This document shows positions 397 through 61,184 of a DNA stretch of 64,000 nt, in pieces. The translations under genes and the position numbers were made by a program. Source of the stretch: Clostridia bacterium. Its GTDB lineage: Bacteria > Bacillota > Peptococcia > DRI-13 > SM3-B62. Where the stretch lies: NCBI GenBank assembly GCA_018432615.1, contig JAHDSQ010000001.1, positions 1-64,000 on the forward strand. The letters run 5' to 3'. The first letter of the stretch is position 1, and every line of letters begins with the position of its first letter. Under the pieces are notes generated by a model, which saw nothing but the letters and a program-made list of their open reading frames with translations, did no database searches and was not told the origin of the DNA.

Positions 397-568
397 TGTA
401 ATATTGGGGCTGTTAGAAAAAATACTTTATAACACTACGATTCGCAAATAGAAATAAAAGCAGAAAAATATTTATAGGATGTTTACATTAGATAATAACC
501 TAAGATATCATGTAATTAGGATTAATTAATGGAATAGTGGTAATGGAAACGGAAAGGAGAGGGTAGCA

Positions 569-679
569 ATCAAAGAGATGAAGGAACCTTGGTACACAAA
601 AATCCCACCCTGAATGTTTATATATATCCTGCTGGGAGCAGGACTTGGCATATACTCATTGATCAAATATCTAATGTGA
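569..679 (+). CDS. Candidate small membrane selenoprotein with one in-frame TGA (or a broken small gene)
   Basis: The frame reads IKEMKEPWYTKIPP, then TGA at 611-613, then MFIYILLGAGLGIYSLIKYL to a TGA stop at 677. The part after the TGA is a plausible transmembrane helix with a basic end. Fourteen bases past the TGA, TCCTGCT (627-633) and AGCAGGA (637-643) form a perfect 7-bp stem with loop GGG, 20 bases from the TGA. That geometry and the loop G fit a bacterial SECIS element. A terminator follows at 701-733, so this is probably its own transcript. AGGAG at 555-559 is best placed for an ATC start at 569. The first ATG is at 578, which gives about 33 residues. The alternatives are a TGG-to-TGA pseudogene or a 20-residue peptide starting at 614. 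I do not recognise the family. Confidence 0.45.
627..643 (+). promoter_or_regulatory. SECIS-like hairpin after the TGA at 611
   Basis: A perfect 7-bp stem with a GGG apical loop starts 13 bases after the in-frame TGA, and the loop starts 20 bases after it. Known bacterial SECIS elements have short apical loops with a G in the first two positions, roughly 16-37 bases downstream of UGA. The match is by eye and no folding energy was calculated. Confidence 0.45.
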
Positions 680-700: not shown

Positions 701-733
701 CGAAATCACCCTTGTAGGTGATTTCGTTTTGTT
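701..733 (+). terminator. Intrinsic terminator
   Basis: A perfect 10-bp stem, CGAAATCACC (701-710) with GGTGATTTCG (717-726), is followed by a T-rich tail. It closes the short unit holding the small TGA-containing frame. Between it and the next gene at 933 I see no further gene. Confidence 0.8.
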
Positions 734-8399: not shown

Positions 8400-8762
8400 T
8401 CAACCGTCGGACATTTCAGTCAGGAAGGTGTGATACTCCTCCTCTTTAAAGCCGATAACCGATTTTCCGTCGGCTATGAGGATCGGTCGCAGCATAATCG
8501 AAGGATTTTCTTGAATAAGCTGCCGGATTTGCTGGTCATTCATTTCCAAAAGTTCAGGCTTAAGTTTTTTAAAGGTTTGGCTTTTCGTGTTTACCAGTTG
8601 ACGGATTGCTAAACCGTTGGATTGGGCGATTTCTTGCAATTCTTGCTCCGAAGGTGGTTCTTTGGCAATGTTACGATAGGTAAAGGTAACCTGTTGTTGG
8701 GAAAGCCACGCTTTCGCCCTTCGACAGGTCTGTCAGGTATTAATGCAGTAAAATGTCAGCAT
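8400..8762 (-). CDS. ArsC/Spx-like thioredoxin-fold selenoprotein (TGA at codon 10)
   Basis: A conventional reading gives only a 79-residue fragment starting at a TTG at 8639. The same frame continues upstream to an ATG at 8762 with a good GGGAGGG site, interrupted only by TGA at 8735-8733. The full product is about 120 residues. It begins MLTFYCINT, then the TGA, then QTCRRAKAWL. This aligns with the CxxC motif of the ArsC/Spx/YffB family (for example CxTCRKA), so the TGA sits exactly where the first redox cysteine belongs. A SECIS-like hairpin follows. The C-terminal half has the family's RPILIADGKSVIGF motif. I infer a selenocysteine-containing oxidoreductase. A nonsense mutation is possible but would have to hit exactly the active-site codon. 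Confidence 0.8.
8699..8715 (-). promoter_or_regulatory. SECIS-like hairpin in the ArsC-like gene
   Basis: On the minus strand GAAAGC (8715-8710) pairs with GCTTTC (8706-8701) around loop GTG (8709-8707). The stem can extend by GG-CC past a bulged C. The loop begins 23 bases after the TGA and contains G at its first position, as in bacterial SECIS elements. It was judged by eye only. Confidence 0.55.
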
Positions 8763-10849: not shown

Positions 10850-12253
10850 ATGGAATTCAAGCAGCTTTACACTCCGGGACTTGCCCATTGTTCCTATGTC
10901 ATTGGGGGCAAAAATGCCTGTGTCGTCATCGATCCTTCCAGGGAAGTCGACAGGTACATTAAGATTGCAGCTTCTTTAGGGCTCCCCATTAAGGCAATAA
11001 TCGAGACTCATCTCCACGCCGATTTTGTGTCAGGACATGTGGAACTAAGGGAACGCACAGGGGCAACGATATACATGACCGCACAGGCGAAGGCGAAATT
11101 TGAACATCACGCTCTTGCTGACGGAGAGGAAATATTAATTGATACCTTACTCATCAAAATGCTGGATACGCCGGGGCATACGCCTGAATGTACGGTATTT
11201 ATTGTTTCAGACTTGGAACGGGGAAAAGAACCGGCCTTGGCTTTTACCGGGGATACCCTGCTGGTCGGGGACGCCGGAAGACCCGATCTTTTCCCTGATA
11301 TCAAAGAGGAATTGGCCTCTAAACTCTATCAAAGTCTACGCAGGATTGAAGGGTTGAGCGATAATATTGAGATGTACCCGGCCCATGGGGCAGGCTCATT
11401 GTGCGGGAAGATGCTCTCCTCCAAACTCTCATCTACCATCGGGACAGAAAAAATGCACAACGCAGCTTTACAGATTTATCCCGAGGAAGAGTTCATAAAA
11501 GGCTTTTTGGAAGGGATGCCTGAAGCACCGGACCACTTTTCCAGGTGTTCGGAGATAAACAGGAAGGGTGCGCCGGCCCTTTCTAAACTGAAAAAACCGG
11601 TGGGATATGCACCGGAAGAGTTTTTGAAACTTAGTCGTGAAGGGTATGTGGTTGTCGATACCCGTGATCATCTGGCCTTTGGAGCTGCCCATGTTCCAGG
11701 AGCCGTAGGCTTGAGTTTAAAAGGGAATTTCGCCACTTTTGCGGGCTGGGTACTGCCTCCGGATAAGCCTTTGCTTTTGGTTGTGGAAAATGAAAGTGAC
11801 ATGCAGGTCGCGTTAAAAGCACTATATAGCGTAGGCCTCGATGATGTAGCAGGTTACCTGGCAGGCGGCATGGCGGCCTATGGGGCAAGCGGACTGGAAA
11901 CGGCCGGTTTCGAGAGTATTTCGGTCACCGAAGCCAAGAGAAGGTACGAAAAAGGAGAAATCATCCTTATCGATACAAGGCTCAAAAGCGAGTGGGAAAC
12001 CGGACATATTAAGTGTAGCGGTCACATTCCTGCGCCTGATGTGCGAAAGAAGTACAAGGAGCTGATGGGGAATACTCCTGTTGCTTTCATTTGCAACTCG
12101 GGGAACAGGTCGCTGCTGGCCACAAGCCTCATGCTGAATTTGAGCGGTATGAAAAACGTTATTAATGTGATCGGAGGTACGACAGCCTGGACAAATCTCG
12201 GTCACCCGACCGTTGCTAAGGGGGAGGATGATTGTGAACTTCCTGTTCGTTGA
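10850..12253 (+). CDS. Metallo-beta-lactamase/rhodanese fusion (persulfide dioxygenase-like)
   Basis: The 467-residue protein begins with an ETHE1-like metallo-beta-lactamase domain (residues ~1-240) with the motif THLHADFVSGH (His54, His56, Asp58, His63) and DTPGHTPEC. Two rhodanese domains follow (~265-355 and ~365-460). The second has the active cysteine (~residue 415, FICNSGNRS). The first lacks it and is probably structural. Homologues oxidise glutathione or low-molecular persulfides to sulfite, or move sulfane sulfur. AAAGGAGG precedes the ATG. Its 3' end overlaps the YeeE/YedE gene by 20 bp, so the two are translationally linked. Confidence 0.92.
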   Translation: MEFKQLYTPGLAHCSYVIGGKNACVVIDPSREVDRYIKIAASLGLPIKAIIETHLHADFVSGHVELRERTGATIYMTAQAKAKFEHHALADGEEILIDTLLIKMLDTPGHTPECTVFIVSDLERGKEPALAFTGDTLLVGDAGRPDLFPDIKEELASKLYQSLRRIEGLSDNIEMYPAHGAGSLCGKMLSSKLSSTIGTEKMHNAALQIYPEEEFIKGFLEGMPEAPDHFSRCSEINRKGAPALSKLKKPVGYAPEEFLKLSREGYVVVDTRDHLAFGAAHVPGAVGLSLKGNFATFAGWVLPPDKPLLLVVENESDMQVALKALYSVGLDDVAGYLAGGMAAYGASGLETAGFESISVTEAKRRYEKGEIILIDTRLKSEWETGHIKCSGHIPAPDVRKKYKELMGNTPVAFICNSGNRSLLATSLMLNLSGMKNVINVIGGTTAWTNLGHPTVAKGEDDCELPVR

Positions 12254-12749
12254 ACTCTGGCCCTGGTGGCTTGGCGGAATAGGGGTAGGCCTTTTGGTGC
12301 CGCTGATGTATTACTTTCTGAATACGGCCTTAGGTGTATCTACAGGGTACGGTAATCTTTTAAAGATTATCCTGCCAAAGACAAAGCTTAAATGGCTTAA
12401 TTCCGAGAAATTCCGGGATAAATTCAACTGGAGATTTATTTTCATCTGCGGGATGATAGCAGGAGGATTTCTATCTGCACGGACCTCTGGAATGTCCTTA
12501 ACAACCTCTCAGATGGGTATCTTTACAGAAAAAACAAGCTGGTCTCTTGCGACTTACATCATTTGGTTCTTTGCAAGTGGCATTCTTCTGGGTTTAGGTG
12601 CGCGCTTGGCAGGAGGTTGCACTTCGGGACATAGTATCCATGGTTTGGCCACTTTCCAGAAGTCGAGTTTGGTGGCAACGGTATTTTTCCTGCTTTTTGG
12701 GGTGATTGCTACTTTCCTCATTAAACTTCTTGTTTGGGGAGGTGCTTGA
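12234..12749 (+). CDS. YeeE/YedE family transporter, first half
   Basis: The 171-residue membrane protein carries the YeeE/YedE motifs GLGARLAGGCTSGHSIHGL, where the conserved cysteine passes thiosulfate in characterised TsuA-type transporters. The GTG at 12234 is preferred. GGGGGAGG (12219-12226) lies at correct spacing, while the ATG at 12228 is too close. It overlaps the persulfide-hydrolase gene and is followed after one base by a second YeeE/YedE gene. The two together make one transporter that is a single chain in other species. The likely role is uptake of thiosulfate or a related sulfur species. Confidence 0.9.
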   Translation: MNFLFVELWPWWLGGIGVGLLVPLMYYFLNTALGVSTGYGNLLKIILPKTKLKWLNSEKFRDKFNWRFIFICGMIAGGFLSARTSGMSLTTSQMGIFTEKTSWSLATYIIWFFASGILLGLGARLAGGCTSGHSIHGLATFQKSSLVATVFFLLFGVIATFLIKLLVWGGA

Positions 12750-12750
12750 G

Positions 12751-13164
12751 GTGACAAAAAAGCTCGGATATCTCTTGGCCGGTATTTTCTTCGGTTTTGT
12801 GCTAAGCCGTTCCGGGGCTTCGGAATACAACTATATTCACTACATGTTCACCGGCGAAGACTTGAAACTAGCCTTGTTGATGGGAACAGCGATAGTTACC
12901 GGAGCAATTGGCATGAAGGTGCTCAAGCATTTCGGTAATAAGGATAGCGGGGGTAAGGAAATCAAGATAAGCACAAAACCGCTGACTAAACATACTGCTA
13001 TCGGAGGGGCCTTATTCGGTATTGGCTGGGCAGCGACGGGCGCTTGCCCCGGCACCGTTTTGGCCCAAGTCGGTGAGGGTAAGTTATTGGGGTTATTTAC
13101 CATGTTAGGTATGATGTGCGGTACATATATCTACGCTTTGATAGTTGAAAAAGCGGACTTGTAG
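12751..13164 (+). CDS. YeeE/YedE family transporter, second half
   Basis: The 137-residue protein has four to five helices and the second conserved motif GWAATGACPGTVLAQVGEG, whose cysteine complements the one in the preceding subunit. The frame is open from 12706, but the GTG at 12751 follows GGAGGTG at good spacing and avoids overlapping the first half. It is the last gene of the sulfur unit. I see no clear T-tailed terminator before vapBC. Confidence 0.9.
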   Translation: MTKKLGYLLAGIFFGFVLSRSGASEYNYIHYMFTGEDLKLALLMGTAIVTGAIGMKVLKHFGNKDSGGKEIKISTKPLTKHTAIGGALFGIGWAATGACPGTVLAQVGEGKLLGLFTMLGMMCGTYIYALIVEKADL

Positions 13165-55132: not shown

Positions 55133-55966
55133 ATGAGTAAATTTATTGGCAAGGAAGTATTGGAGGCATTCATAACCATCGCACCATATTTGAAAGATTT
55201 ATATCCGTATGACGTGTTTGTATTTGCCTGCGACACAAAAAAATACCTTGCGTATATACCCGGAGATACTTTTGATATAAAAATCAAGGCAGGAGATACG
55301 GTTCAAACCGGAAGCTCATCGTATGCGGCGATGCAGGAAAGAAAAAAAGAAGTAATGATCATTGGAAAGGAAGTATATGGGGTTCCGTATAAAGCCATTA
55401 CTGAACCAGTCTTTGATGAGAACGATAACGTAATTGGGGCCGTCGGGATTGGTTTGAGCTTAGAAAATCAGAACAAACTGCAAGAGGTTATCGAACAATT
55501 CAGTTCTGCTTTTGAACAGGTGAACAGTGGTGTACAGGAGATAACTTCCGGTGCTCAAAATCTAGCAAACATCGGTTCCAGGCTGGCGGGGGCTTCTCAG
55601 CAGACGAGCGAAAACGTTAAGCAGACTGATGAAATTATTCAGATGATACGAAGTATTGCCGATATGAGTAAGCTGTTGGGATTGAATGCGGCGATCGAGG
55701 CGGCCAGAGCGGGAGATCAGGGCAGAGGTTTTGCCGTTGTAGCAGAAGAAATCAGGCGGCTGGCGGAAGAAAGCAATACCTCCGCCAAGCAGGTGGAGTC
55801 TATTCTGCTGGAGATAGCTGATTCAATAAAGGTTATTAATAACGACACCCAGGAAACTAGTGCGGTAAGCGAAGAGCAATCCTCAGCAACGGAGGAGATA
55901 GCGGCTTCTATGGAAGAATTGATTGCTCAGTTGGAGACGCTGAATGATTTTGTTAAACTGCTGTAA
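55133..55966 (+). CDS. Soluble methyl-accepting chemotaxis protein, copy 1
   Basis: The 277-residue protein has an N-terminal ~125-residue sensor region and a short MCP signalling domain (~126-277) whose hairpin tip is [20 protein letters not shown]. It has no transmembrane helix or HAMP domain, so it is cytoplasmic. The sensor region may be a PAS/Cache-like fold but is not recognised. It is the first of three tandem copies whose signalling halves are almost identical while the sensors differ (here [20 protein letters not shown]). GGGGAGG precedes the ATG. It is followed by its own terminator. Confidence 0.9.
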
Positions 55967-56007
55967 TGAGAAGTTTTTACTATTTAATGCCAGGAAAGAA
56001 AGTAATT

Positions 56008-56052
56008 AAGGCTTCTGTCCATAGTTAAAAGCGTGGATTGAAGCCTTTTTAT
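56008..56052 (+). terminator. Terminator of MCP copy 1
   Basis: AAGGCTTC (56008-56015) and GAAGCCTT (56040-56047) are followed by TTTTAT. Confidence 0.8.
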
Positions 56053-56230
56053 AACACGATATAAACGCGCTGTTACGACAAATTGCAGGAAAACAGCAAT
56101 AAATATAAAGAGGGAAATAATAAATTGATGTCGAATTTAGGACTACAATAACAATATCTTAGCAAAAGACAGAATAAGGTGCTTCGATATTTAATGAACA
56201 TAAATATGTAAAAATAAGGAGGCATATTCG

Positions 56231-57064
56231 ATGGGAAAATTTTTAGGAAGAGAAGTCTTAGACGCATATGTGACCATTGCGCCATGTTTTAAAGCTTTGT
56301 ACCCATATGACGTATGTGTTACTATCTGTGATGTGGATAAAATTATCGCATACGTACCCGCAGATACTTTCGATATAAAGCTTAGTGTCGGAGAAACAGT
56401 TAATACTGGTTCTTCGGCATATGCCGCTATGCAGGAAGGAAGAAGGAAAGTCATAACTGTGGGGAAAGAGGTTTATGGTGTTCCATACAAGGCGATTACC
56501 GAACCGGTTTTTGACGAGAATAATAATGTAATCGGGGCAGTAGGGGTCGGTCTAAGCTTGGAAAACCAAAACAAGCTGCAAGAGGTAATAGAGCAGTTTA
56601 GTTCAGCCTTTGAGCAGGTGGGTAGTGGTGTGCAAGAGATAGCCTCTGGGGCCCAGAACTTGGCGAATATCGGTGCCAGGCTGGCGGGAGCGGCGCAGCA
56701 GACGAGTGAAAATGTGAAGCAGACTGATGAGATTATTCAGATGATACGAAGCATTGCCGATATGAGTAAGCTGTTGGGATTGAATGCGGCAATCGAGGCG
56801 GCCAGAGCGGGAGATCAGGGCAGAGGTTTTGCCGTTGTGGCTGAAGAAATCAGACGACTGGCAGAAGAAAGTAATACCTCCGCCAAGCAGGTGGAGTCTA
56901 TCCTGCTAAAGATTGCTGATTCAACAAAGGTTATTAATAACGACACCCAGGAAACGAGTGCGGTCAGCCAAGAGCAATCTTCAGCAACAGAGGAAATAGC
57001 GGCCTCCATGGAGGAATTGACAGCCCAGTTAGAGACGCTGAACGATTTTGTTAAACTACTGTAA
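56231..57064 (+). CDS. Soluble methyl-accepting chemotaxis protein, copy 2
   Basis: It has the same length and architecture as copy 1. The signalling half differs by only a few residues. The sensor half has its own sequence ([20 protein letters not shown], then [15 protein letters not shown]). AAGGAGG lies before the ATG. Ligand specificity probably differs from its neighbours, while the output to CheA is shared. A terminator follows, so each copy has its own transcript. Confidence 0.9.
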
Positions 57065-57080
57065 ACACTAACTAAGAAAA

Positions 57081-57127
57081 AAACAAGGCGTTTGCTCATA
57101 CTTCAAGTTATGGCAAAGGCCTTGTTT
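57081..57127 (+). terminator. Terminator of MCP copy 2
   Basis: AAACAAGGC (57081-57089) pairs with GCCTTGTTT (57119-57127) across a 29-base loop with some further pairing. Confidence 0.75.
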
Positions 57128-57296
57128 AAATATAAACAGATGTTTAAGCTTCGGTTCTTCAAAGAAACGCAAATAAACTCGGATACAATTAAAGGAATAG
57201 AATGAATTAATATCGAAATTATAGTACATAGATAAGTCTTTAAAAATGTTAAAAAAATAAAAACATTTTAAATAATACAAGGCAGGAGGTTTAATA

Positions 57297-58130
57297 ATGG
57301 GTAATTTAGTTGGGAAAGAAGTGTTTGATGCGTTTATAACCATTGCTCCTCACTTAAAAGCCCTTTATCCTTATGATGTTTTCGTTACTATATGTGATTT
57401 CAACCAGGCCGTTTTACATGTGCCGGGCGATACCATTGACCTCAAAATCAAGCCGGGTGATCCGATTATAGAGGGAGCCGTAGCACGTAAGGCTATGGAT
57501 AAAGGAAAACGGGAAGTCAGGGTTACCGGAAAGGAACTTTATGGTGTCCCTTATAAAGCCATGGCAGAACCGGTATATGATGAGAATAATAAGGTGATTG
57601 GGGCGGTTGTGGTCGGCCTGAGCTTGGAAAATCAGAACAAGCTACAAGAAGTTATTGAACAATTCAGTTCAGCCTTTGAGCAAGTAAGCAGTGGTGTACA
57701 AGAGATAGCCTCCGGAGCCCAGAATTTGGCAAATATCGGTTCCAGGCTAGCGGAAGCGGCACAGCAGACGAGTGAAAACGTTAAGCAGACTGATGAAATT
57801 ATTCAGATGATACGAAGTATTGCCGATATGAGTAAGCTGTTGGGATTGAATGCGGCAATCGAGGCGGCCAGAGCGGGAGATCAGGGCAGAGGTTTTGCCG
57901 TTGTGGCTGAAGAAATCAGGCGACTGGCAGAAGAAAGCAACACCTCTGCCAAGCAGGTGGAGTCTATCCTACTGAAGATTGCTGATTCAACAAAGGTTAT
58001 TAATACCGATACCCAGGAAACGAGTGCGGTCAGCCAAGAGCAATCTTCAGCAACAGAGGAAATAGCAGCCTCCATTGAGGAATTGACAGCTCAGTTGGAG
58101 ACGCTGAACGATTTTGTTAAACTACTGTAA
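57297..58130 (+). CDS. Soluble methyl-accepting chemotaxis protein, copy 3
   Basis: The third copy is 277 residues and again has a nearly identical signalling half. The sensor is the most diverged of the three ([40 protein letters not shown]). GGCAGGAGG precedes the ATG. The conserved hinge [20 protein letters not shown] is shared by all copies. It is followed by a terminator. Confidence 0.9.
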
Positions 58131-60870: not shown

Positions 60871-60954
60871 GATAAAATTTATAGAACATTTATTGAGTCT
60901 TGTTTTCAGTGAGTAATGTCGATATAATATATGACGTGAAGGAAAAAAACTCTA

Positions 60955-61150
60955 TAAGGATTAGGTGCCCGTAAGGGAGAATAGGGAACGGGGTGCAAAT
61001 CCCCGGCGGACCCGCCACTGTAACTGCCAAACCGACTGCGTGCGTGAAAGTGCAAAAAGGCCACCGTGAAGAATAACGGGAAGGCCGCAGAAGGTAATGA
61101 AGCAGAGCCAGGAGACCTGCCTGATTTGGTTTGAACGGGATGGATGAAGG
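60955..61150 (+). promoter_or_regulatory. Cobalamin (B12) riboswitch
   Basis: The conserved core is present: GGTGCAAATCCCCGGCGGAC, GCCACTGTAA (61014-61023) and the B12 box GCCAGGAGACCTGCC (61107-61121). A terminator at 61154-61184 follows directly. Adenosylcobalamin binding should therefore favour termination and lower cobT expression. Confidence 0.96.
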
Positions 61151-61153
61151 TAA

Positions 61154-61184
61154 AGTCCACAGTTATATGACTGTGGGCTTTTTT
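61154..61184 (+). terminator. Riboswitch expression-platform terminator
   Basis: AGTCCACAGT (61154-61163) pairs with ACTGTGGGCT (61170-61179), with one G-T pair, followed by TTTTTT. It lies 38 bp before the cobT start. Confidence 0.9.

Follow-up and report, generated by a model that had tools for sequence, protein, structure and literature searches.

Known bacterial selenoproteins depend on a UGA codon, a downstream bSECIS hairpin and the selenocysteine (Sec) machinery, and the family described here appears to use the same three elements. A 2026 review lists 119 prokaryotic selenoprotein families in its Table 1, e.g. SelW-like CxxU, PrxU, Uxx-star and KCU-star proteins, and none of the 119 has the motif of our selenopeptide (PMC13188914). 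Nearly all known families have Cys homologues, which are usual but not required in a selenoprotein, whereas the selenopeptide showed none in the same-phylum genomes searched. SelW-like proteins share CxxU with five selenopeptide members; the family does not pass a SelW-like CxxU test, as C-x-x-U occurs in only 5 of 30 members and the copy studied here reads IPPU. PrxU (NF040737) resembles the selenopeptide in its Sec-based redox character, but it is a soluble enzyme of the AhpC/TSA fold, about 235 aa long, with no sequence relation to the selenopeptide. Proteins of the DsrE/DsrF-like type (PF02635), found as a CxxC neighbour in six genomes, are candidate partners; they are separate soluble proteins, not homologues. 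Eukaryotic selenoproteins K and S are, like the selenopeptide, small single-pass membrane proteins with Sec in the cytosolic part, but they are larger, carry Sec near the C-terminus and use a eukaryotic SECIS in the 3' UTR; we know of no sequence similarity between them and the selenopeptide.

The selenopeptide gene lies at 569..679 on the forward strand of the window, i.e. the whole stretch of 64,000 nucleotides analysed here. Judged by sequence comparison, it belongs to a conserved, previously uncatalogued family of predicted one-helix membrane selenoproteins. The 36-codon frame with one internal TGA that the first-pass annotation described is present: its codons run ATC AAA GAG ATG AAG GAA CCT TGG TAC ACA AAA ATC CCA CCC TGA ATG TTT ... 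ATG TGA, with the TGA that we read as Sec at 611..613 (+) and the stop TGA at 677-679. The predicted product is (I)KEMKEPWYTKIPPUMFIYILLGAGLGIYSLIKYLM, which has 36 aa if codon 1 is the ATC at 569 and 33 aa if it is the ATG at 578. A Shine-Dalgarno sequence, AGGAGAGGG, stands at 555..563 (+), with its AGGAG at 555-559; its spacing fits a start at 569, and the homologues share this layout. An intrinsic terminator, CGAAATCACC-CTTGTA-GGTGATTTCG-TTTTG, follows the stop at 701..726 (+). Members are about 33-40 aa long. Their N-terminal tail is basic and is followed by the motif W-Y-x-[KR]-[ILVC]-[SP]-P-U, after which comes one hydrophobic helix, encoded in the window at 614..676 (+). AlphaFold2 predicts a helix at residues 14-35 of the 36-aa form (mean pLDDT 82), and the 19-residue mean hydropathy is 1.7-2.7 in every member tested; with 30 homologues, this supports the earlier idea of a one-helix selenoprotein of about 33 residues. 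By the positive-inside rule, the positively charged N-terminal side points to an N-in topology, in which Sec would lie at the cytoplasmic membrane interface.

As far as homology searches can tell, at least 30 genomes of anaerobic Bacillota carry the family. Among 100 relatives one homologue was found (G068), 63% identical and with TGA at the same site; a two-row profile run on 398 same-phylum genomes picked out, apart from the window, four strong matches, each with one TGA; and an IUPAC pattern applied to 84,980 species genomes found 29 loci, of which 27 are members. Two pattern-scan loci, L071 and L088, were rejected as chance matches, and so was a match in L039 that lies within the frame of another gene. 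Genome scan and HMM searches yielded 30 aligned full-length members, and in 30 of 30 the TGA occupies the same codon; no version with Cys, Trp or another sense codon at the Sec site was found in about 490 same-phylum genomes. W8, P14, U15, Y19, L21 and L22 are invariant in this 30-row alignment; a further member outside it, L131, has Leu in place of the Trp. Searching 98 genomes of one class with the 30-row profile located the selenopeptide at 28 places, spread over 27 genomes and each with TGA; in one family it was present in 24 of 43 genomes. One genome, G439, has two copies (C77 and C12). The carriers are Syntrophomonadaceae MAGs (many from the sampling series CSSed), Pelotomaculum, Desulfotomaculaceae, Desulfoscipio and unclassified Bacillota. 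The sole record outside Bacillota, L074, is a MAG labelled Sumerlaeota with 7% contamination, and its sequence is identical to that of G068. No selenopeptide was found in plasmids, phages or viral contigs.

The perfect 7-bp hairpin with a GGG loop that had been noticed 13 bases past the TGA is confirmed. It reads TCCTGCT-GGG-AGCAGGA at 627..643 (+), with 627-633 paired with 637-643 and the loop at 634-636. Taken alone it is weak evidence, since the window segment 605-665 folds with a z-score of only -0.52 and, of 2,214 TGAs in the whole window, 2 are followed at the same spacing by a 7-bp stem closing a GGN loop. The fold that the first reading had expected near the TGA is thus poorly supported by thermodynamics, but it is conserved and covarying in the homologues, and conservation across 30 genomes makes it more than chance. 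In the 30 sequences 96.7% of the cells are paired, the loop is GGG or GGC and lies 20 nt past the UGA, and pair 2 is AU in 18 members, CG in 5 and GC in 2, with AU at pair 5 in one member. Double changes occupy 8 cells against 1.8 in shuffles, and none of 500 shuffles reaches 8. Synonymous divergence collapses at the same place, with pS 0.11 in the five hairpin codons vs 0.81 on either side. The hairpin codons CTG CTG GSA GCA are almost fixed, whereas the codons for Leu, Gly and Tyr vary in other parts of the gene. Part of this fixity came from our search pattern, which specified YTGG and S over the second Leu and the next codon; the third bases of Leu21, Ala23/Gly23 and Ala24 were left free by it.

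We consider it almost certain that the UGA of this family is decoded as Sec, although no expression, 75Se or mass-spectrometry data stand behind the claim. Coding constraint persists past the UGA: upstream of the TGA pN/pS is 0.33 and downstream of the hairpin it is 0.41, vs 0.98 and 1.62 in shifted frames. The genome of the window encodes SelA, SelB, a tRNA-Sec directly after SelB, and a SelD with an in-frame TGA (Sec-type), so all four genes, selA, selB, selC and selD, that the first-pass annotation proposed to look for are present. The SelD hairpin of this genome is comparable, with a G-rich loop and a stem that begins 9-13 nt after the UGA. Together with the conserved TGA and hairpin, this machinery makes Sec use by the organism credible, as was first supposed. 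Two carrier MAGs, G430 and G454, have both SelA and SelB below the cut-off, probably because the MAGs are incomplete or contigs are missing, which has not been shown; a recent loss of the Sec trait is the alternative to missing contigs. SelA is found in 89 of the 98 genomes of the class, and its co-occurrence with the selenopeptide there is therefore uninformative. A reading of UGA as Trp (a code-4 genome) was rejected, considering that this peptide has its Trp encoded by TGG and the ORF stop is TGA. The homologues have TGA, not TGG, at the site and keep a covarying hairpin, so the finding that would have marked the locus as a pseudogene, Trp at this position without hairpin conservation, was not obtained. 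The second case offered in support, at 8400-8762 (-), is indeed a selenoprotein, but a separate one: an ArsC/Spx-family UxxC protein with a U-Q-T-C active site (MLTFYCINTUQTCRRAK...), above the TIGR01617 cut-off and far below that of the Sec-type ArsC model NF041106.

The selenopeptide gene mostly stands alone, and most members, the window's included, have no conserved neighbour. The neighbours that do recur are soluble redox or sulfur proteins, and they point to redox or sulfur chemistry. In six genomes (L059/L092, L068, L075, L079, L084 and L131) a DsrE-like gene starts about 20 nt behind the selenopeptide gene; it encodes about 112 aa with CKAC and matches Pfam DsrE at E 4e-4, just under the gathering score. 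Among the 98 genomes of the class, the peptide is present in 5 of the 6 that have the DsrE-like protein (p = 0.006), and the two genes are adjacent in four. The copy at L068:3959-4294 and its relatives form a compact DsrE-like subfamily (FNGNPMCF ... GICKACSA), usually adjoining the selenopeptide. PrxU lies directly upstream in L066, L067 and L069, which are three of the five CxxU members; an in-frame TGA at its peroxidatic site splits the gene, and the product matches NF040737 with 394 bits. A rhodanese and a peroxiredoxin follow the selenopeptide in L080, a rubrerythrin neighbours it in L091 and a flavodoxin in L076 and L077. In the window, a lipoprotein-like rhodanese 2.6 kb downstream is 41% identical to the L080 rhodanese.

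Other features of the window were noted in passing. A 32-bp CRISPR repeat (GTCGCGCCCTACGCGGGCGCGTGGATTGAAAC) occurs in six perfect copies at 34-396, at the start of the contig, where the array is cut. The adjacency to a CRISPR array that was first remarked upon is real, but the array looks incidental; an association was rejected, as no CRISPR link appears in the other neighbourhoods examined. A metallo-beta-lactamase/rhodanese fusion and, behind it, two YeeE/YedE-like membrane ORFs (10850-13164) look, by eye, like a sulfur or selenium transport cluster. Three tandem chemoreceptor-like signalling genes of 277 aa each (55133-58130) differ in their N-terminal halves and are nearly identical in their C-terminal halves, and a cobalamin riboswitch (60946-61138) lies immediately upstream of a CobT-like ORF at 61183.

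We propose that the selenopeptide is a membrane-anchored cytoplasmic selenol relay working with soluble peroxide- or persulfide-handling proteins, a reading that we hold to be reasonably probable, with topology, partners and chemistry all inferred. SelB and Sec-tRNA would read the UGA 13 nt ahead of the 7-bp bSECIS hairpin with its GGG or GGC loop, a step that the comparison strongly supports. The product, a short basic N-terminal tail, [I/L/V/C]-[S/P]-P-Sec and one membrane helix, would place Sec at the cytoplasmic face of the membrane. There the tethered selenol may alternate between its selenol form and a selenenylsulfide (or selenenylpersulfide) as it exchanges with soluble partners in the cytoplasm, presumably those encoded adjacent to it in some genomes, namely the DsrE-like CxxC protein, PrxU/AhpC peroxiredoxins or rhodanese. 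Such a relay would deal with peroxide or sulfane sulfur formed at the membrane and link this handling to it. Against this, most members have no second thiol, which means that a self-contained redox couple is not general. Alternatively, the selenopeptide could be a true selenoprotein that belongs, as a small subunit with a structural or regulatory role, to a membrane complex whose genes lie elsewhere; Sec would then be a ligand or a redox switch. CydX-like proteins are one-helix subunits of membrane complexes, and the one-helix architecture, the mostly stand-alone gene with its own terminator and the patchy presence would all suit such a role; the recurrent neighbours, however, are soluble redox proteins and not membrane complexes, and we regard a subunit role as unlikely.

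Whether the window copy itself is functional is a separate question. The ribosome binding site and terminator described at first are there, but the ancestral start codon is ATC, not ATG. The relatives' start aligns with the window's ATC at 569-571, where 26 of the 30 members have ATG, two have GTG and one has TTG; the first window ATG (578) is codon 4 and stands 18 nt from AGGAG, a poor spacing. The copy may start at ATC, may start at ATG578 or may be fading, and its expression is uncertain. A decaying member of a genuine family, with weak or absent translation, would also be in keeping with the absence of the gene from the same-genus genome G001 and with the degenerate copies known in L138 and L140. 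These two, at about 1440-1640, are degenerate or N-terminally short, retain the TGA and hairpin and miss the normal start region. In the window, on the other hand, frame, TGA, hairpin, ribosome binding site and invariant residues are all intact, ATC is among the possible starts in table 11, and a start at ATG578 would retain W, P, U and the helix; decay is thus an unlikely account of this copy.

Two further possibilities were considered. First, a short ORF with UGA and a hairpin, with another gene beginning about 20 nt downstream in six genomes, could be a selenium-sensing leader peptide, in which UGA decoding versus termination controls the downstream genes and the peptide as such would not matter. 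This is very doubtful, because the amino acids after the UGA are conserved (the pN/pS of 0.41 above), P, U, Y, L and L are fixed and the helix is kept hydrophobic, while the downstream genes vary between genomes and a terminator stands behind the window gene. Second, by its size and hydrophobicity the product could be a toxin- or stress-type membrane peptide whose synthesis is gated by selenium. A membrane toxin does not need the conserved W-x-x-x-x-x-P-U-x-x-x-Y, neither an antitoxin partner nor an antisense arrangement was seen, and the neighbours are redox genes; this idea, too, is very doubtful. An ordinary stop followed by a fortuitous hairpin, which is not rare genome-wide by itself and is not disfavoured by the weak folding z-score, is practically ruled out by 30 homologues sharing TGA, spacing and a covarying hairpin.

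The gene was thought easy for annotation to miss, and it is: gene callers would take the UGA for a stop and keep only about 11-14 codons of the ORF, and no NCBIfam model (June 2026) matches the 30 members above noise (best E = 0.08, EssA). Pfam, searched with the window member only, gave no usable match, and a literature search that could not reach most subscription journals found no prior description of the family. The deep-Sep authors note that a selenoprotein may escape detection when it has no Cys homologue (PMC12013277). The omission of this family from the catalogues fits that limitation, by which finders relying on Cys homologues miss Sec-only families (PMC12013277). Returning to the relay, we put forward, tentatively and with less than even confidence, that the family is a Sec-only membrane peptide of 33-40 residues that never settled for cysteine and serves PrxU and a DsrE-type sulfur carrier as a membrane-surface selenol hub in anaerobic Bacillota. 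Sec is apparently kept at every known instance, in at least 30 genomes, which raises the question of why cysteine is insufficient in so small a peptide. The selenopeptide offers a small and cheap model of membrane Sec chemistry, and the family suggests that further Sec-only microproteins are still hidden.
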